Below are positions 8,390 to 19,581 of a stretch of DNA of 35,862 nucleotides, piece after piece (the stretch's first letter is position 1; the number at the start of each line of letters is the position of its first letter). The position numbers and the translations under genes are program-made. The notes under the pieces were generated by a model, which was not told where the DNA came from, searched no databases, and worked only from the letters and a program-made list of their open reading frames with translations. The DNA comes from an uncultured Pseudomonadota bacterium (lineage in GTDB: Bacteria; Pseudomonadota; Gammaproteobacteria; Burkholderiales; Methylophilaceae), in contig CAILFU010000004.1 in NCBI GenBank assembly GCA_903833595.1, forward strand, positions 1 to 35,862, in the 5' to 3' direction.

Positions 8390-9637
8390 TTAAGCACTTT
8401 TTGTTCTTCTATCAAATTTATCCATTTTAGTTGTCAGAAGCAGCTGCTCAAGCTTGGTAATTAATATATTTCGATTAAACTCTTGATTACTATATTCAAA
8501 GCCCTTCCTGCCCATCTCTTCAAGCTCTTCAACGCCCATGGCTGACAACTTTAGAACTGAATCTGCTAGCGTCTGAGCATCACCAGCAGGGCAAGCAATG
8601 CCAGATCCGGATTCACTTAGAACTCTAGCACCTTCACCATTAAGCATCGCTAATATGGGTTTTCCTACAGCCAGATAAGATTGGAGCTTGCTTGGAATGG
8701 TCAAAGAAAAAATTGGTTCATCTTTTAAGCTTACCAGCAAAACATTTGCATGTTTAAAAAAGGAAGGCATTCTCTCTGGTGGATGACGGCCCACCATCAA
8801 AACACAATTCTGTAACTTACGCTTCTTTATCTCATTTTTGAGCCAGTCAGCCATTCGCCCATCACCAACAATCAACCAACGGATACGTTTATGGTTTTTT
8901 ATAAGCTCCGCAGCAGCCAAAATAGCAGGAAAGTCCTGGGCCTCGCCAATATTTCCAGCAAACATTATGTCGAAACTCCCATTTTCTATTGGAATTTCTT
9001 CAGCATAAACTACATTACTTAAATCAGAAATATTCTCCGCCCAATTTGGAAAGTAAATCACCTGAGTAAAATCATTTGCATACTTTTTAATATGAGGGAT
9101 AAAGCTTCTAGACTGCGCAAGAATCAAATCGCATCGTTTGTAAATATACCGAACAAGTCCTGCAATTATTCCAAGGATTACCTTTGATCGCACAATGCCG
9201 ATAGCCTGAAGGCTCTCTGGCCACAAATCTTGCACCCAAAAAATCACCGGTGCATTCTTAACCCATCCTAGAAAACACGCTGGAATACCAACAGTTACTG
9301 GGGATGGCTCAAAAACAAAAACAACATCGAAGTCTTGGTGACGTAGTTTATAAGACCCAAACAACGTCGCAGCCAATGCAAACGACAAATAATTAAGTAC
9401 GAGTTGAATTGAATTAACGCCTCTAGGCACAATTGGCACTCGAATTATCTTTGCATTTGCAATCGCCTTAAACTCTGCAGGATCTTCTAGGAAGCTCTCG
9501 TAAATTTTCCCTTCTGGATAGTTGGGCATCCCAGTCAGCACTGATACATCATGACCGCGCCCTGATAAATCAACGACCATATCATTTATTTTAAAATTCT
9601 CAGGCCAGAAATATTGAGTTACAACTAATATTTTCAT
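8390..9637 (-). CDS. wbuB: WbuB-family glycosyltransferase (GT4)
   Basis: A 415-residue retaining GT-B transferase. The N-terminal VTQYFWPENFKIND (6-19) and LTGMPNYPEGKIY are hallmark WbuB segments. The central VQDLWPESLQA block and the C-terminal donor-site region (FAGNIGEAQDF, IPSKLQSYLAVGKPIL) fit the GT4 family. In E. coli O26-type clusters WbuB is predicted to transfer L-FucNAc from UDP-L-FucNAc, and it lies directly after fnlC. Here it also directly follows the UDP-sugar 2-epimerase, by 10 bases. It should therefore use the L-6-deoxy-HexNAc (or amidinated derivative) made by the upstream trio, probably adding it to the QuiNAc-lipid. The acceptor is inferred. Confidence 0.82.
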   Translation of the reverse strand: MKILVVTQYFWPENFKINDMVVDLSGRGHDVSVLTGMPNYPEGKIYESFLEDPAEFKAIANAKIIRVPIVPRGVNSIQLVLNYLSFALAATLFGSYKLRHQDFDVVFVFEPSPVTVGIPACFLGWVKNAPVIFWVQDLWPESLQAIGIVRSKVILGIIAGLVRYIYKRCDLILAQSRSFIPHIKKYANDFTQVIYFPNWAENISDLSNVVYAEEIPIENGSFDIMFAGNIGEAQDFPAILAAAELIKNHKRIRWLIVGDGRMADWLKNEIKKRKLQNCVLMVGRHPPERMPSFFKHANVLLVSLKDEPIFSLTIPSKLQSYLAVGKPILAMLNGEGARVLSESGSGIACPAGDAQTLADSVLKLSAMGVEELEEMGRKGFEYSNQEFNRNILITKLEQLLLTTKMDKFDRRTKSA

Positions 9638-9647
9638 TTAAAAGAAA

Positions 9648-10772
9648 TCATTTAGACCATACTGTTCGATTTACATAACCCACATAGCTCATCACTACGC
9701 GCAATATTTTTTTTGAAACTGGGCCACCTTCATAGTCTTCAACTCTATCCATCACCCGTTTAGTTCTGTCATGCTGAGCAATAATTACACGCACCGCATC
9801 CAACACTCTATCTTTCTTTAAACCGCTCATAATTAACGTGCCCACATCCATTCCTTCAGGACGTTCATGTGCGTTACGAATTGTAATGGCTGGCAAATTA
9901 AGCAAGGATCCCTCCTCTGAAATTGTTCCACTGTCTGAAACCACACAGAATGCTTCCATTTGTAGCTTGATGTAATCACAGAAACCAAAAGGTTTTAAAA
10001 ATTGAATAAGTGGGTTGAGATTACCTAGCTCCATGGCATCTAAACGCTTTTTAGTGCGGGGATGGGTTGAAACAATAACCGGATAATTATATGTTTCCGC
10101 TAAGGCATTAAGTGTTTCAACCATGTTCGTCATATTTTCAGGGCTATCGATATTTTCTTCGCGGTGAGCACTGACAATAAAAAATTGATTGGCCAACAAA
10201 CCCATACGTTGCAACACGTCAGATTTCAGGATTTTAGGCATGTAATAATCAAGTACCTCACGCATGTGAGAACCCGTCTTAATAATAGTTTCCGGCGCAA
10301 TGCCCTCAGCAATTAAGTAGCGACGTGCATGCTCAGTTAAAACCAGATTAATATCACTCAAATGATCTAATACTTTACGATTAAGCTCTTCTGGCACGCG
10401 CTGATCAAAACAGCGATTACCAGCTTCCATATGAAATACTGGAATTTTTCGACGTTTAGCCGAAATAACTGAGAGGCAAGAATTAGTGTCTCCATACAAC
10501 ATAATGGCATCCGGTTGCTCTTTAGCCATAACATCATCTGACTTCTCAATTACTCTAGCGATGGTCTGTGCAGTCGTATCGCCAACTGCCTCAAGAAAAT
10601 AGTCAGGTTTGCGAATTTCTAAATCATCAAAAAAAACTTGATTAAGTTCAAAATCATAGTTCTGTCCAGTATGTACAAGTACATGTTCCGTGTGCCGATC
10701 AAACTCAGCAATCACCCGAGACATCTTAATTAATTCAGGACGCGTCCCTACAATAGTCATTATCTTAAGCAC
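9648..10772 (-). CDS. fnlC: UDP-N-acetylhexosamine 2-epimerase, FnlC/WbjD/WbvD-like
   Basis: A 374-residue non-hydrolysing UDP-sugar 2-epimerase. The N-terminal MTIVGTRPELIKM is present. Putative catalytic residues are D95 in YGDTNS, E116 in FHMEAGNRCFD and E129 in RVPEELN, with SAHREENID and SDSGTISEE following. Length and motifs match FnlC/WbjD/CapG and WbvD, the last step in making UDP-L-FucNAc or UDP-L-QuiNAc, rather than WecB. The chosen start is GTG, 8 bases inside the end of the fnlA-like gene. It has an AGGA ribosome site at good spacing; an ATG four codons later is possible. Stereochemistry of the product depends on the reductase two genes upstream, which looks WbvR-like. Confidence 0.88.
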   Translation of the reverse strand: MLKIMTIVGTRPELIKMSRVIAEFDRHTEHVLVHTGQNYDFELNQVFFDDLEIRKPDYFLEAVGDTTAQTIARVIEKSDDVMAKEQPDAIMLYGDTNSCLSVISAKRRKIPVFHMEAGNRCFDQRVPEELNRKVLDHLSDINLVLTEHARRYLIAEGIAPETIIKTGSHMREVLDYYMPKILKSDVLQRMGLLANQFFIVSAHREENIDSPENMTNMVETLNALAETYNYPVIVSTHPRTKKRLDAMELGNLNPLIQFLKPFGFCDYIKLQMEAFCVVSDSGTISEEGSLLNLPAITIRNAHERPEGMDVGTLIMSGLKKDRVLDAVRVIIAQHDRTKRVMDRVEDYEGGPVSKKILRVVMSYVGYVNRTVWSK

Positions 10773-11775
10773 GAAGCTCTTCCTTAATATAATCTAACTT
10801 GAGCAATAATGTTTTTACTTGTTCGACATTTAAGCGCTCTGTGTTATGAGAGGTGTAATCTTCTTGGTGTGATATCTTTTCTTCGCCTTCGCTAAAGTAC
10901 TGCGCGTAATTAAGATCGCGATTGTCGGCTGGAATGCGGTAGTACCCACCCAGATCTTCAGCTTTCACCATCTCTTCTCGTGAGATTAATGACTCATATA
11001 ACTTTTCACCATGCCGCGTACCAATAATGCGAACCGGCTCATCTTTTTTCAATAGCTCTTTTATAGCTTCCGCCAGATCAGCAACAGTCGAAGCGGGTGC
11101 CTTCTGCACAAAAATATCACCTTGTTTGCCATGTTCAAATGCGTACAAAACTAAATCCACTGAATCTTCCAACGACATAAGAAATCGCGTCATATTGGGA
11201 TCAGTAACAGTAAGTGGCTTGCCTTCTTTAAGTTGTGAAATGAAGAGTGGAATTACGGATCCACGTGACGCCATTACATTGCCATATCGAGTCGCACACA
11301 GCACAGTTTCATCCTCAAGTTGAGTTCGCGCTTTTGCTACCATTAACTTTTCGGCCATGGCTTTAGAAATACCCATTGAATTAATTGGATACACAGCTTT
11401 ATCTGTACTAAGCACAACAACACGTTTCACACCATTGACCGTTGCCGCATTCATTACATTCTCAGTACCTATTACATTAGTTCGCACTGCCTCCATAGGA
11501 TAAAACTCACAAGAAGGCACCTGCTTCAAAGCAGCAGCATGAAAAACATAATCAACGCCCTTCATTGCTTGACTAACGCTGTCGTAATCACGAACGTCAC
11601 CAATATAAAACTTTAATTTCGAATTATTAAACGCAATGCGCATATCTTCCTGCTTCTTCTCATCGCGACTAAAAATTCGTATTTCTCGCACTGCAGTAGA
11701 AAGAAAACGCTTAAGCACCGTACTTCCAAAAGAGCCCGTCCCACCTGTAATCATCAATACTTGATTCGATAACAT
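10765..11775 (-). CDS. fnlA: UDP-GlcNAc 4,6-dehydratase/3-/5-epimerase, FnlA/CapE/WbvB-like
   Basis: A 336-residue SDR that converts UDP-GlcNAc to UDP-4-keto-6-deoxy-L-HexNAc, the first step to L-FucNAc or L-QuiNAc. The NAD loop TGGTGSFGS is at 10-18, with HAAALKQVPSCEFYPMEA in the middle. The catalytic STDKAVYPINSMGISK (123-138) contains T124, D125, K126, M134 and K138, the same positions as in CapE, with Met replacing the SDR Tyr. It starts 15 bases after the reductase with an AGGA site. It overlaps the 2-epimerase by 8 bases. The assignment to the FnlA/CapE/WbjB group is firm. These enzymes are shared by the L-FucNAc and L-QuiNAc pathways. Confidence 0.92.
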   Translation of the reverse strand: MLSNQVLMITGGTGSFGSTVLKRFLSTAVREIRIFSRDEKKQEDMRIAFNNSKLKFYIGDVRDYDSVSQAMKGVDYVFHAAALKQVPSCEFYPMEAVRTNVIGTENVMNAATVNGVKRVVVLSTDKAVYPINSMGISKAMAEKLMVAKARTQLEDETVLCATRYGNVMASRGSVIPLFISQLKEGKPLTVTDPNMTRFLMSLEDSVDLVLYAFEHGKQGDIFVQKAPASTVADLAEAIKELLKKDEPVRIIGTRHGEKLYESLISREEMVKAEDLGGYYRIPADNRDLNYAQYFSEGEEKISHQEDYTSHNTERLNVEQVKTLLLKLDYIKEELRA

Positions 11776-11790
11776 GTTTTGTAATCCTAC

Positions 11791-12645
11791 TTAGTTAAAT
11801 TTATACATTTGATTTATTAGCTCATTCCATGAAGGAGCAACGTATCCTGTCGCCAGAGCAAAGCGCCCCCCATTTAGAGAACGATCAATTATTAGAGTTG
11901 AGTCGGGAGTGATTTCAACTTCTGATCCATAAACTTTTGCTACCAATTTTAGCAACTCATATTTATTGATCGGCGCTGCCGCGACATGATAAACACCCCT
12001 CAACTCAACATGAGGCAGAACGAAATCTCGAATAACACGAGAAAGTTCAACAGTCGGCAAACCAGAAAATACGGCATTTGAATACCCCTTAACCTGTCCA
12101 CGCTGCGCCAAGAACCAACCGATCAAACTTCGATGACCCAATAACTCATGGCCAACAATAGAAGTCCGAAGTGTGACAGCATGAGAATAATCTACCTCCC
12201 CAAGCAACTTACTTCTGCCATATAAATCATTTGCATCAGGGAAATCTGATTCCACATAATTGCCCTTAGCTCCAGCGAACACACAGTCTGTACTAATATG
12301 TACTAAACGCGCGCCGGCTACTTTACAAAGAGCAGCCAAACGGTGAGGCAGAATTGTATTGATAGGAATGGCTTGTAATGGATCTTCAACATCGACAACT
12401 TGCTTAACTAGACCGATACAATTGATAACAACTTCCGGCCTCACTTTACCAAATACGCTCACCAACGAATCATGATGTTCAACATCCACACCGCAAACAA
12501 TCTGTTGACGCAAATTCTCTTTAAAATAGCTCTTGGCCGAATCACTACGAGCGCTACCAAAAACAGTTAGCGCTGGATCTTCCGACAGCATGCGAAACAT
12601 GGCATTACCCAACATGCCCGTCACGCCCAAAATCAAAATTCTCAT
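11791..12645 (-). CDS. RmlD-like sugar-nucleotide reductase (WbvR/QnlB-like), no cupin domain
   Basis: A 284-residue SDR of the RmlD superfamily. I start it at the ATG ending at 12645, which has an AGGAA site 8 bases upstream and begins MRILILGVTGMLG. A longer frame reaching 12684 adds 13 unlikely residues. HISTDCVFAG, NDLYGRSK (Y142, K146) and LRTSIVGHE are RmlD-type signatures. It sits beside fnlA- and fnlC-like genes and so should reduce UDP-4-keto-6-deoxy-L-HexNAc at C4. FnlB/CapF/WbjC enzymes are longer, about 370 residues, with a C-terminal cupin. This one lacks it, matching WbvR of Vibrio cholerae O37 in the UDP-L-RhaNAc/L-QuiNAc route. That stereochemistry is inferred. Confidence 0.8.
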   Translation of the reverse strand: MRILILGVTGMLGNAMFRMLSEDPALTVFGSARSDSAKSYFKENLRQQIVCGVDVEHHDSLVSVFGKVRPEVVINCIGLVKQVVDVEDPLQAIPINTILPHRLAALCKVAGARLVHISTDCVFAGAKGNYVESDFPDANDLYGRSKLLGEVDYSHAVTLRTSIVGHELLGHRSLIGWFLAQRGQVKGYSNAVFSGLPTVELSRVIRDFVLPHVELRGVYHVAAAPINKYELLKLVAKVYGSEVEITPDSTLIIDRSLNGGRFALATGYVAPSWNELINQMYKFN

Positions 12646-12712
12646 TAAATATTTCCTATGACGCGGCCATGCATACGTCCGCAAACGTAGTGGCTATTTA
12701 AAAACAAATGCA

Positions 12713-13492
12713 TTACGCCCCCTTCAATGAATCTAAAACTAAATTATCACGCTCAACGATGCTGGGATAATTAATTAGGACAGCTCGATAAACTCCTTTA
12801 AATACGAACAAACTGCCCGCAGCAGCCCCAACCACTCCACAAGTTTGGATCAGGCTTCCGATATCAGAAATTGATCCAGCACCACCGAGTAATGTCATTG
12901 GCAACCTAATAGCCTCGCGTATTTTAGTAGCCAAATTTAGATCGTATCCCGTCATCTGTCCATCAAGATCAATCGAGTTGATAACTATTTCACCGGCACC
13001 CAACCTCTCAGCCTGCTGCGCAACTTCAACCGGCGTACGACCGGTTTTTTTCTTGCCGTTATGAGTATAGACCTCATATTTGCCAAACAAAGATTTTTTG
13101 ACGTCAAGCACTACCACCACACTTTGACTACCAATTTCTGCAGCGATTTCTGTAATTAAATTGGGATTTGAGATAACCTCAGAACTGATTGCAATCTTCT
13201 CCACACCCAGCCCTATAATTCGCCTAGCTTGCTCTACAGTTTTGATACCGCCACCGTAACACAAAGGCATACGGCATTCTGCCGCTAATTTCTGAATCAT
13301 TGCAAAATCAGGCTCAGAACCAGTTGCGGTGGCGTCAATATCCAGCACAATCAACTCATCAGCCTCTTTTTCATTGAATATTTTAACCGCATTAATCGGG
13401 TCGCCAACGTATTTAGTGGGACCAAACTTCACCGTCTTTACTAGCCCCTTACTTCTTACAAGTAAACAAGGAATAATTCTGGGACGTAACAT
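12713..13492 (-). CDS. wbuZ: HisF-like ammonia-channelling subunit of a sugar amidination complex (HisF2/WbuZ)
   Basis: A 259-residue TIM barrel homologous to HisF. With HisH it delivers glutamine-derived ammonia to the adjacent WbpG-family amidotransferase, which turns an N-acetyl group into an acetamidino group. It retains IIPCL at the N-terminus, CYGGGIKT (78-85), D130 in VVLDVKK, INSIDLDGQMTGYD and LGGAGS. However, the essential HisF Asp11 is Leu here (P8-C9-L10-L11). True imidazole-glycerol-phosphate cyclase activity is therefore unlikely, which supports a dedicated polysaccharide role. It starts 2 bases after the HisH-like stop. It is not the histidine-operon gene, since no other his gene is nearby. 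Confidence 0.88.
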   Translation of the reverse strand: MLRPRIIPCLLVRSKGLVKTVKFGPTKYVGDPINAVKIFNEKEADELIVLDIDATATGSEPDFAMIQKLAAECRMPLCYGGGIKTVEQARRIIGLGVEKIAISSEVISNPNLITEIAAEIGSQSVVVVLDVKKSLFGKYEVYTHNGKKKTGRTPVEVAQQAERLGAGEIVINSIDLDGQMTGYDLNLATKIREAIRLPMTLLGGAGSISDIGSLIQTCGVVGAAAGSLFVFKGVYRAVLINYPSIVERDNLVLDSLKGA

Positions 13493-13494
13493 AT

Positions 13495-14109
13495 CTAAAT
13501 TTCCGCAAAGTTTTTAAGCAACTGGGTTCCGAAATGATGGCTTTTTTCAGGATGGAATTGGACGCCATAGACATTTTCACGATGGACTGCACAAGTAAAA
13601 TCTCCACCATAGTCGCTGACAGCTAACACATTAGCCTGTTGACAACACTCAAAATAATAAGAATGTAGGAAGTAAAATCGAGCATCCTGCTCCATGCCCT
13701 TAAACAAACCGCTATCCACAACTGGCGTTACATCATTCCAGCCCATATGCGGCAAGTTAGTACCTTTAGGCATCTTTGAAACATCAAACTTCTTCACTGT
13801 TCCATCTACCCAACCAAGCCCTGGCAATGCGCCCTCATCGCTTGATTTAGCAAGCATTTGCATGCCTACGCAAATACCAAGCACTGGCATAGACTGCTGC
13901 AACACAAGTTGCTCTAAAGACTGACGCATTCCAGATCGATCCAATTGCTGCATTGCATGATCAAACGACCCGACACCCGGCAAAATTAACTTTGTCGCAT
14001 TAGCTAAATCACAGGTAGCCTTTGCAACCACAACGGGAATATTCAAACGGTTATATACATTAACAAAAGCCAACACATTACCTAACCCATAATCAATGAT
14101 GGTTATCAT
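13495..14109 (-). CDS. wbuY: HisH-like glutamine amidotransferase of a sugar amidination complex (HisH2/WbuY)
   Basis: A 204-residue class I glutamine amidotransferase that hydrolyses glutamine to give ammonia. The triad is complete: nucleophile C80 in VLGICVGMQM, then H186 and E188 in YGVQFHPEKS. IDYGLGN (5-11) and LPGVGSFDHAM (43-53) are typical HisH. Its ATG overlaps the WbpG-family gene stop by 4 bases (ATGA) and it ends 2 bases before the HisF-like gene, so the three are co-translated. In P. aeruginosa O5 and E. coli O145-type loci the same triplet supports synthesis of acetamidino sugars. Here the substrate is most likely the L-6-deoxy-HexNAc made by the following genes. Confidence 0.9.
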   Translation of the reverse strand: MITIIDYGLGNVLAFVNVYNRLNIPVVVAKATCDLANATKLILPGVGSFDHAMQQLDRSGMRQSLEQLVLQQSMPVLGICVGMQMLAKSSDEGALPGLGWVDGTVKKFDVSKMPKGTNLPHMGWNDVTPVVDSGLFKGMEQDARFYFLHSYYFECCQQANVLAVSDYGGDFTCAVHRENVYGVQFHPEKSHHFGTQLLKNFAEI

Positions 14110-15248
14110 TTGTACAATCTTTTTTCCAAACCAAGCAAACTCATTACCTTTGAGCCAATTTCTATCAGTGCTCGCTTACTTTTGTAATCATAGCTAGATT
14201 TGTTTTCACCCTCAAATATGGCTCGTAACTCTGCTACGGTTAAATCTAACTTATGTGCAACATACTCAAACTCGCACTCTAAGAAGTGTTCATCCAATTC
14301 AGGTGTGGCAATTCGATCTAGCGCTTCCTGCCTTGTCATTTGACCAGTAAGAATTAAACTTGAAAAATGTGCTCGCCGCCTGTCAAAACCAAACTTCCTC
14401 GGCAGCCAATAATCTTCAAAAAATCGAGTAAACCGAGACTCATGATGTTTATGTTGGAATTTCTTCCATCCAAACCGAGCTTCCAGTAAATCTTCAGCAT
14501 TTTTTTTGATGTATGGAATAAGATCTAACGGCTTAAAAACCTGCATTCCCAAAATATATTTGTAATAAATTTTTGAAGTGAATACATCTATGATTGGAAA
14601 TGTTTTTAGAGGGAATTTGCCAAATTTTGAATGGATATCCAATATCAATGTTTTATCTGTACCCGGATAAGCACCCCACTCTTCTGGCTCGCGACAACAC
14701 TCTGTAGAGTAATTTCCACCCGTCAAAACGTACTTAATTTTGTTTTTTCGTGCAAATTTATACAGCGTCGAAAAAAATGCCGTATCTTGAGCTATATCTT
14801 GGTGTGGAATTTGTGACTTTAACAAGGCAACCTGAAGATCTTTAATCTCCTCCCAATTAATCACTTCAGTGTATAAATCAAGTCCTAATCCATCAACCAA
14901 TTTTTCAATGTTTCCCACTGCCTGGTCAGTATTCCAGCCCGCATCCACATGAAAAAGCAAGGGGCGCAATCCCAGTTTTTCCTTAGCTATATAAGTCAAA
15001 TAGGAACTATCCAAACCGCCACTCAAACCAATAATACAATCAAAGTCTTTTCCTTTACCTTGCTCTTTGATTTTTTCGGCTATTTCTAGTAACTTTTTTT
15101 CACCTCTAGCATCAGTATTCCAACTCGGAAGAATGCTATTGTGAAAATTGTTACAGTACACACACCAATCACGATCATCAAACGTAATGCTTGAATCAGA
15201 AGTATCCATGATGCAATTGCTACAGACTTTATACGATAACGTTTTAAT
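14106..15248 (-). CDS. wbuX: N-acetyl sugar amidotransferase, WbpG/WbuX/PseA family; probable ATT start
   Basis: An ATP-PPi-loop amidotransferase that activates an N-acetyl sugar and, with ammonia from the HisH/HisF-like partners, makes an acetamidino sugar. The PP-loop SGGLDSS is at about 76-82, followed by YLTYIAKE and LFHVDAGWNTDQA. The first ATG (15207-15209) would cut the family's zinc knuckle. The same frame continues 13 codons upstream and encodes KTLSYKVCSNCI, restoring CxxC (C8, C11) to pair with CVYC (C29, C32). The only start-like codon in that extension is ATT (15246-15248), preceded at 7 bases by AGAGG. An in-frame TAA lies just above. I therefore annotate a 380-residue product from ATT. 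Function is secure at family level; the start is inferred. Confidence 0.85.
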   Translation of the reverse strand: MKTLSYKVCSNCIMDTSDSSITFDDRDWCVYCNNFHNSILPSWNTDARGEKKLLEIAEKIKEQGKGKDFDCIIGLSGGLDSSYLTYIAKEKLGLRPLLFHVDAGWNTDQAVGNIEKLVDGLGLDLYTEVINWEEIKDLQVALLKSQIPHQDIAQDTAFFSTLYKFARKNKIKYVLTGGNYSTECCREPEEWGAYPGTDKTLILDIHSKFGKFPLKTFPIIDVFTSKIYYKYILGMQVFKPLDLIPYIKKNAEDLLEARFGWKKFQHKHHESRFTRFFEDYWLPRKFGFDRRRAHFSSLILTGQMTRQEALDRIATPELDEHFLECEFEYVAHKLDLTVAELRAIFEGENKSSYDYKSKRALIEIGSKVMSLLGLEKRLYK

Positions 15249-15260
15249 TTTATTGCCTCT
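15246..15260 (-). promoter_or_regulatory. Shine-Dalgarno site AGAGG placed for an ATT start codon
   Basis: Minus strand: AGAGG (15256-15260), a 7-base spacer, then ATT (15246-15248). No comparably placed ribosome site precedes the ATG at 15209. The spacing is ideal for ATT initiation of the WbpG-family gene. Confidence 0.5.
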
Positions 15261-15288: not shown

Positions 15289-16458
15289 TTAAGTGGCGGT
15301 TCTGAACAATTCACGATTATCATTCAGCACCTTAGGATCCATCAAACGCTTAAGCGCACTTTGCTTCACTATTGCTCTTTTTTTCAATCGCTCATTAAGA
15401 GGCTCACCAGCCATTTCTTCAATAACCTTAATAAAAAGACTTTCATCCCTCAAATCGACATCCCAGCCCAAACCGTCAACATCTAAATCCAGCCATGGTG
15501 TGTTTTTACTAATGAGTACTTTTGTACCGACAGATATAGCTTCCGCTATCACATGCCCATAATTCTCGCCCTTACTGGGAAAAAAGAACAAATCATAACC
15601 ACTAAAAATCTCAGACACCCGACTAGGGGATACTGCACCATAATAAGTTGCAATTACGTTCTGCGGTAAGCGCTTAATTAACTCCTGGCACTCCCCCCAG
15701 TACTCCGCATCCTCATCCGGCCCATAAATATCGAAGATGACTTTAACGTTCAATTGAATCAGTACCCTCAAAACAAAATCAAGATTTTTCTCCCTAGAAA
15801 ACCGAGAAAGAAAAACAATTCTTAAATACTGATCTGATAAAGCAGAACTATTCGGCAAATCTTCTACGACCTTACTGGGCAAATCTAGCGCCATCTTGAT
15901 TAAATTGCTGATTGGATTCAAAACATCAACAATATCTTGCAACTCATATTCGCTTGTCGCGTGAAACAACGCATTGTTATACAGCCCAAAAAACTTTGCA
16001 AAATAGATAAAAATAATCTTCTTTGCATACTTCAGCCTCAACGACCCCTCACCAAATTCACCTCTTGGCGATAGTAATAGTGGAGATTTTGGCAACCAAC
16101 CCAACTTTCTAGCCAGCATAATCCTAAGAGTAAATACTGGATCAAAATAACTATTTAAGTGGATCAAATCATGCGGTGTATTTAAAGTTAATTTTACTAA
16201 GGTTTTAGCATTAAGAGATTCCGGTGGAAGATAAAGCACCATGGCCCCCTCTACAGACTGCCATTCATTCAATTTCACTTCAGAGTATGGCAACTCACTA
16301 CCCAAGTCTCTATCGCGAGTCACAATCCAGAACTCATAATCATCATTTAACCAAGCAACTGTATTAACAATAGTTCTTAATACTCCTCCGGATTTATATC
16401 CTGGCAAATAATTCAAAACAAACACTAATACTTTAGGTTTTTTTCCTAGATACATCAT
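15289..16458 (-). CDS. Glycosyltransferase family 4
   Basis: A 389-residue GT-B transferase. The N-terminal acceptor domain has VLNYLPGYKSGGVLRT (about 14-29), with a glycine-rich loop, and LLSPRGEFGEGSLRLK. The donor half shows FLSRFSREKNLDFVL and FFFPSKGENYGHVIAEA, the GT4 E-x7-E region. It adds one sugar to the lipid-linked repeat unit on the cytoplasmic face; donor and acceptor cannot be told from sequence. It lies after wzy and before the amidination module (40 bases to the proposed ATT start). A terminator-like hairpin lies upstream of it, so its expression may depend on read-through. Confidence 0.85.
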   Translation of the reverse strand: MMYLGKKPKVLVFVLNYLPGYKSGGVLRTIVNTVAWLNDDYEFWIVTRDRDLGSELPYSEVKLNEWQSVEGAMVLYLPPESLNAKTLVKLTLNTPHDLIHLNSYFDPVFTLRIMLARKLGWLPKSPLLLSPRGEFGEGSLRLKYAKKIIFIYFAKFFGLYNNALFHATSEYELQDIVDVLNPISNLIKMALDLPSKVVEDLPNSSALSDQYLRIVFLSRFSREKNLDFVLRVLIQLNVKVIFDIYGPDEDAEYWGECQELIKRLPQNVIATYYGAVSPSRVSEIFSGYDLFFFPSKGENYGHVIAEAISVGTKVLISKNTPWLDLDVDGLGWDVDLRDESLFIKVIEEMAGEPLNERLKKRAIVKQSALKRLMDPKVLNDNRELFRTAT

Positions 16459-18721: not shown

Positions 18722-19540
18722 TCATCGCAATTTATTCTTGAGGTGTTTTGCACTAAAAATCATTTTTTTGATTAATTGAAATAAATAGTGCGCCAGTTTT
18801 TCACTGGGCATTAAGAGCTTCCCTTTCAAGTGCTCTTTTGGCCTGGCCTTAAAAATTGTATTATGCTTGATACCATCCCAACCAGAGGGAGCTTCTTTAG
18901 TATAGTAATAAATTGCAAAAGATTTTCTCATTCTATCCATTGGGCAATTTATTGGAGTCACACCATGCCAACTGAAAGATCCAGTTGCAAACCCTGCTAA
19001 CCTATTGAATGTAGGCGCAAAACTCCCAATGCAATTCTTTACATCCTTATCCCATAGATCAAGATATCCACCAAATTCTTCATCCCAGTCCTTATTAAAA
19101 TATATGAGAAGATTCAATCGGCGATGCAACGCCAATTCTTCGTTATAATTAAAGTCAATGTGCACGTCCAAATGCCCACCTGTGTTTGTTGCATGTATAC
19201 CGCCACCACTCATATTTGGATCTGCAATTAAATTTTCAATTCCACTCATTTCGGAGATTAAGGCAACGAACTCCTTAGATACGAGTAAATCATATAATTT
19301 TTTTATAGGTGTTGGGTATTTCATACAGTCTGACACTTGAACTTTTCTTTTCTCGTTTATCGCGCGATACGTAACCCCTACATCAGCAGCTTCTTTATAT
19401 GATGGGAAAGAGTCATGGATTTTTAGTGCAAATTCCTCATCAAGAAAATTATCAAGGCAGAAATGAGGGAACCCTGGTGAATTTTTAAATTGAAATTTAC
19501 AGTTATCTATATCAAACTTATTCAGTAAAGATGAATCCAT
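18722..19540 (-). CDS. 2-oxoglutarate/Fe(II)-dependent oxygenase
   Basis: A 272-residue protein with the double-stranded beta-helix oxygenase signature. Numbering from the longer frame starting at 19546, the iron ligands are H129-x-D131 in VHIDFN and distal H194 in FSWHGV, and R207 in MRKSFAIYYY is the likely 2-oxoglutarate anchor. I prefer the ATG at 19538-19540 (third codon of the longer frame), because AGGG lies 8 bases before it and is too close to the first ATG. Such enzymes hydroxylate or desaturate a substrate. Inside a glycan operon the target could be a sugar, acyl group or amino substituent. The 2OG-Fe(II) superfamily call is strong, the substrate unknown. Confidence 0.8.
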   Translation of the reverse strand: MDSSLLNKFDIDNCKFQFKNSPGFPHFCLDNFLDEEFALKIHDSFPSYKEAADVGVTYRAINEKRKVQVSDCMKYPTPIKKLYDLLVSKEFVALISEMSGIENLIADPNMSGGGIHATNTGGHLDVHIDFNYNEELALHRRLNLLIYFNKDWDEEFGGYLDLWDKDVKNCIGSFAPTFNRLAGFATGSFSWHGVTPINCPMDRMRKSFAIYYYTKEAPSGWDGIKHNTIFKARPKEHLKGKLLMPSEKLAHYLFQLIKKMIFSAKHLKNKLR

Positions 19541-19581
19541 TTTCATATCCCTTATTATTTAATAACATATCGGATTAACAA

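Follow-up and report, generated by a model that had tools for sequence, protein, structure and literature searches.

N-acetyl sugar amidotransferases of the WbpG/WbuX type include one member of solved structure, LpNASAT (8WEX), in which a tetracysteine CxxC...CxxC motif was found experimentally to bind zinc (PMC10607449). Formation of L-FucNAm has been attributed to another, WbuX of E. coli O145 (PMC10607449). Separately, functional AUU start codons have been proven in infC, which encodes initiation factor IF3 (PMC5472188), in Borrelia burgdorferi pncA (BBE22) by genetics, biochemistry and a crystal structure (PMC13398362), and in Yersinia pestis rcsD-HPt, where an AUU with a ribosome-binding site (RBS) proved functional by codon changes (PMC10191623). 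A preliminary description of the present locus had likewise called ATT starts rare but known. Another non-AUG start, the GTC of Streptomyces sigR, is repressed by IF3 (PMC5472188). Here we consider a wbpG-type gene in a stretch of 35,862 nucleotides from an uncultured member of the Methylophilaceae (the window). In our assessment, the gene at 14106-15248 probably codes for an intact WbpG/WbuX amidotransferase, translated from AUU 15248-15246 under the direction of an upstream AGAGG.

The wbpG gene and its neighbours

The genes next to wbpG are on the same strand.

12713..13492, minus strand: AglZ/HisF2-family acetamidino modification partner (NF038364, 385.7 bits, cut-off 310)
13495..14109, minus strand: HisH-type glutaminase (TIGR01855, 228.8 bits); its start overlaps the wbpG stop (ATGA)
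14106..15248, minus strand: N-acetyl sugar amidotransferase of the wbpG/wbuX type; frame of 380 codons beginning with ATT and ended by TGA at 14106
15289..16458, minus strand: upstream glycosyltransferase; its stop codon lies 40 nt before ATT

The WbpG/WbuX assignment made in the preliminary description agrees with the TIGR03573 (WbuX) profile, which scores 285.2 bits (cut-off 203.2) with residues 7-345 aligned to positions 2-343/344. The PP-loop SGGxDS expected of this family is present in the translation as SGGLDS, and HisH- and HisF-type partner genes lie at 13495-14109 and 12713-13492. The ATGA overlap of wbpG and hisH also occurs in most relatives checked. From 8390 to 15248 the gene order is a WcaI-like (WcaI-family) glycosyltransferase, a WecB-like epimerase, an FnlA-like dehydratase, an RmlD-like reductase, HisF2, HisH and WbuX. 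This arrangement resembles an O-antigen module for L-FucNAm (acetamidino-fucosamine), which would presumably be the sugar made here. A 2OG-Fe(II) oxygenase gene is also found within the polysaccharide cluster, at 18722-19546.

The protein is 86–87% identical to its three nearest homologs, and whole-gene pN/pS against these is 0.08–0.11; by this measure wbpG is under purifying selection. The full frame is intact and every family-invariant residue in an alignment of 47 sequences (A1) is retained. An AlphaFold model that includes the N-terminal extension described below has a mean pLDDT of 89.3, with block means of 87–91 (confident) for residues 11–40, and its top match in the PDB is the zinc-binding LpNASAT (8WEX).

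The start region and homolog N-termini

The first in-frame ATG of wbpG lies well inside the open frame, and a candidate start stands above it.

15256..15260, minus strand: AGAGG, Shine-Dalgarno-like (SD) site; 7-nt spacer (CAATAAA) to ATT; -5.8 kcal/mol against ACCUCCUUA
15246..15248, minus strand: ATT, putative start codon; aligns with the ATG of homolog L019, 8 codons before the first Cys
15207..15209, minus strand: first in-frame ATG, a conserved internal Met of C-I-M-D-T-S-D; SD energy -0.4 kcal/mol

Between the in-frame TAA and ATG 15209 the codons read AGA GGC AAT AAA ATT AAA ACG TTA TCG TAT AAA GTC TGT AGC AAT TGC ATC ATG. The preliminary description had put the TAA 13 codons above the first ATG; it is the ATT that stands 13 codons above 15209, but the open stretch runs to 17, with AGA GGC AAT AAA preceding the ATT. 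Its other statements can be read directly from the minus strand: the extension encodes KVCSNCI (KVCSNCIM with the following Met), contains no in-frame ATG, GTG or TTG, and has ATT at 15246-15248 with AGAGG exactly 7 nt upstream. The organism's genome sequence shows identical letters, though it is the assembly from which the window comes and so no independent check. From the stop of the upstream gene to ATG 15209, no ATG, GTG or TTG occurs in any frame, apart from one out-of-frame TTG inside the CxxC. A single indel error therefore could not yield a canonical start above the CxxC, and only a substitution could; a frameshift origin of such a start is ruled out.

SD duplex energies were calculated with the standard anti-SD ACCUCCUUA, as no 16S rRNA of the organism itself was found in the draft. 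The site before ATT (-5.8 kcal/mol) is exceeded at only a few gene starts of the window, compared with -0.4 kcal/mol for ATG 15209. Under a Markov model of the strand, 3.2% of open 17-codon stretches have an in-frame ATT 5–9 nt downstream of a 4-nt SD core, and 15% have some near-cognate or canonical start at that distance. At these rates the SD and ATT are weak evidence by themselves, and homology carries the case. RNA structure at the wbpG start does not exceed chance (z = 0.58), no terminator was found in the 40-nt gap before ATT, and promoter-like sites there are at chance level.

We scanned one genome per species, which gave 80 wbpG-type loci, 77 with an N-terminus readable by script; homolog starts were assigned by rule, as the nearest ATG within range, rather than by experiment. 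All 77 start 4–13 codons above the first Cys, 76 with ATG and one with GTG, and thus above the CxxC position. No homolog begins at the downstream ATG, and in none is the region above it missing; relatives that did so and were without the first CxxC are what the preliminary description had named as evidence against the ATT start. The commonest start, eight codons before the first Cys (23/77), is where the ATT sits. Likewise, in a MAFFT alignment with the three nearest homologs, the ATT falls on the ATG of L019 (87% identity). Its alignment with a homolog ATG, the commonest start position of the family and the SD together make ATT the best start, as first proposed.

The ACG at 15242-15240, another near-cognate codon, is also in frame and above the CxxC, and its position six codons before the first Cys is the start in 15 of the 77 homologs. 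With 13 nt between it and the SD core the spacing is long, and we know of no established ACG starts in bacteria; that it is the start seems extremely improbable.

The Met encoded by ATG 15209 (M14) is invariant in alignment A1; it is a conserved internal residue and unlikely to be the start. In the knuckle, wbpG differs from L020 only synonymously (AGC AAT TGC ATC against AGT AAT TGT ATA). Because of the homolog N-termini, these synonymous-only changes and the low pN/pS, we regard the extension as coding and constrained, and the gene as free of signs of decay. These observations bear on whether the start was simply lost by mutation, so that the gene is being inactivated or yields only a truncated product from ATG 15209. 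The lack of a canonical start and the lower yield expected from ATT than from ATG would fit such a loss, and a very recent one would not yet show in these measures. Yet the full frame is intact, the family-invariant residues are all kept, pN/pS is about 0.1 and the partner genes are intact; moreover, a good SD precedes ATT and none precedes ATG 15209, where no homolog starts. We consider loss of the start very unlikely.

The Cys4 zinc site

Two CxxC motifs make up the putative zinc site.

15213..15224, minus strand: TGT AGC AAT TGC, first CxxC (CSNC); in alignment A1, C9 is invariant and C12 nearly so
15153..15164, minus strand: TGT GTG TAC TGT, second CxxC (CVYC); in alignment A1, C29 and C32 are both nearly invariant

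The tetracysteine of the family is thus present in wbpG (CSNC plus CVYC), with CSNC included only if translation starts above 15209. The preliminary description had expected the first CxxC throughout the family. This holds for a Cys4 subgroup, the 51 of 78 homologs that have the second, third and fourth Cys, and the window gene has the full set; it is not universal, since the other 27 depart. Among these, 26 combine CxxT with Ser at the third position, and one has Ser and Tyr at the later positions only. About a third of homologs are without the full set, so the zinc argument draws on the Cys4 subgroup. None of the 78 homologs keeps the third Cys without the second, so a product from 15209, with CVYC and no CSNC, would be unprecedented in this set.

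Many Bacteroidota and Achromobacter homologs (within L021-L082) have lost the zinc cysteines in step, leaving CxxT...SDYY or SDYC. Their sequences suggest a zinc-free branch of amidotransferases.

If the AUU is used, ribosomes would bind AGAGG and initiate with fMet-tRNA, which would read AUU with a third-position mismatch. The protein would begin Met-Lys-Thr-Leu-Ser-Tyr-Lys-Val-Cys, include the MKTLSYKVCSNCIMDTSD region and carry a complete Cys4 zinc site, whereas a product from ATG 15209 would begin MDTSDSS.

AUN starts in the genus and known non-AUG starts

No homolog has ATT at the wbpG start position, and none closer than ∼87% identity to the window gene was found. A DNA search of 52 same-genus genomes, the organism's own included, gave no close wbpG copy; nor did viral contigs, and plasmid records reach only 58% identity. 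Because no homolog shares the ATT and none is closer than ∼87%, the codon is without independent confirmation. The main alternative is that the real codon is ATG, the T having arisen through an error in consensus or assembly or coming from a minority strain variant. The genome is a draft of 251 contigs, ATT is one substitution from ATG at exactly the ATG position of L019, and all 77 homologs have ATG or GTG. On the other hand, a survey of starts in 165 of the organism's genes, compared with one same-genus genome, found no other long gene with a start lost in its own genome alone, so errors that destroy starts are not common in this assembly. In that survey both genomes lack a canonical start for infC and for hemW; the other candidates read as conserved leaders or antisense frames. 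On balance we judge a base error or variant unlikely, though worth keeping in mind.

In the organism's infC (L098/L163, contig C40, match 1128-1634), 25 residues of conserved N-terminus are preceded by no canonical start. Non-canonical infC starts are usually exemplified by AUU or AUC; here the probable start is ATA, preceded by GGAGA, and ATA was found at every same-genus infC start that could be read. Given this start, infC is probably under IF3 control. The other long gene in the survey with conserved coding well above its first canonical start is HemW-like.

Contig C45:1507-2571 (HemW match), extension to about 2691, minus strand: HemW-like gene (L168), ∼40-codon conserved N-terminal extension

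The ∼40-codon extension in the organism's own genome contains no ATG, GTG or TTG. A TAA directly precedes GTT CAT ATC AAA AAA, and the hemW start is probably the ATC, or an ATT that follows, as read from sequence. Same-genus genomes have ATC, ATT or ATA at the matching position; none has ATG at the positions listed, and two ATG pattern matches lie elsewhere. In one genome (G013) the upstream gene appears to overlap the extension stretch, so the conservation of hemW is partly confounded. AUN starts thus appear to be used in the genus, and this lends credibility to an AUU start for wbpG; infC and hemW also suggest that too few AUN starts are annotated in this lineage. It is a longer step, and one we think improbable, that the genus tolerates AUN (AUU/AUC/AUA) starts more widely than assumed, with infC, hemW and this strain's surface-sugar gene under IF3-sensitive initiation and heme-related and envelope functions tuned together.

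Judging from infC, pncA, rcsD-HPt and sigR, initiation at the wbpG AUU would be lower than at AUG and repressed by IF3. Translation of hisH, which starts inside the wbpG stop, would follow that of wbpG, and through this ATGA overlap a drop in wbpG translation would probably reduce HisH as well. The throttling of the amidination module raised in the preliminary description is plausible by way of IF3. That the AUU was selected as such a throttle, with IF3 level or initiation fidelity setting WbpG and, via ATGA, HisH and thereby coupling surface amidination to translational state, is a further claim that we find doubtful as an addition to AUU initiation. The ATA start of same-genus infC, the IF3 repression of GTC-started sigR (PMC5472188) and the overlap with hisH kept in most relatives checked speak for it. 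Nevertheless, the ATT occurs in no relative, leaving no conservation argument for a regulatory role, and the fair SD argues for expression kept up, not down. We favour a low rate that is a tolerated mutation offset by the fair SD, rather than an adaptation.

On the AUU reading, gene finders restricted to ATG, GTG and TTG would miss the first 13 codons of wbpG and with them half of the zinc site. As an accessory biosynthetic gene with a probable natural AUU start, wbpG would add to the cases other than infC and offer a simple test case for whether AUU codons, rare and already known as starts, regulate expression or are merely tolerated.

The sequence features of an AUU-started gene can be found in wbpG: a homologous N-terminus above the first ATG, GTG or TTG, an SD, and ATT where the start should lie. 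Its protein resembles the WbpG/WbuX/LpNASAT amidotransferases in profile match, PP-loop (SGGLDS), tetracysteine and HisH/HisF partners; the homologs examined all start with ATG or GTG, in contrast to the ATT of the window gene. Like infC (AUU/AUC), wbpG has a conserved N-terminus, an AUN start and no canonical start in use (PMC5472188), but in infC the codon serves autocontrol and relatives retain a non-canonical start, whereas the wbpG ATT is seen in one sequence only. Y. pestis rcsD-HPt likewise has AUU with an RBS; unlike wbpG, it is an internal start that gives a small protein (PMC10191623). B. burgdorferi pncA is, like wbpG, a metabolic gene with an AUU start, and was mis-annotated at a downstream start (PMC13398362); its homologous N-terminus is needed for the fold, and its start is experimentally proven, whereas that of wbpG is one we infer from sequence.
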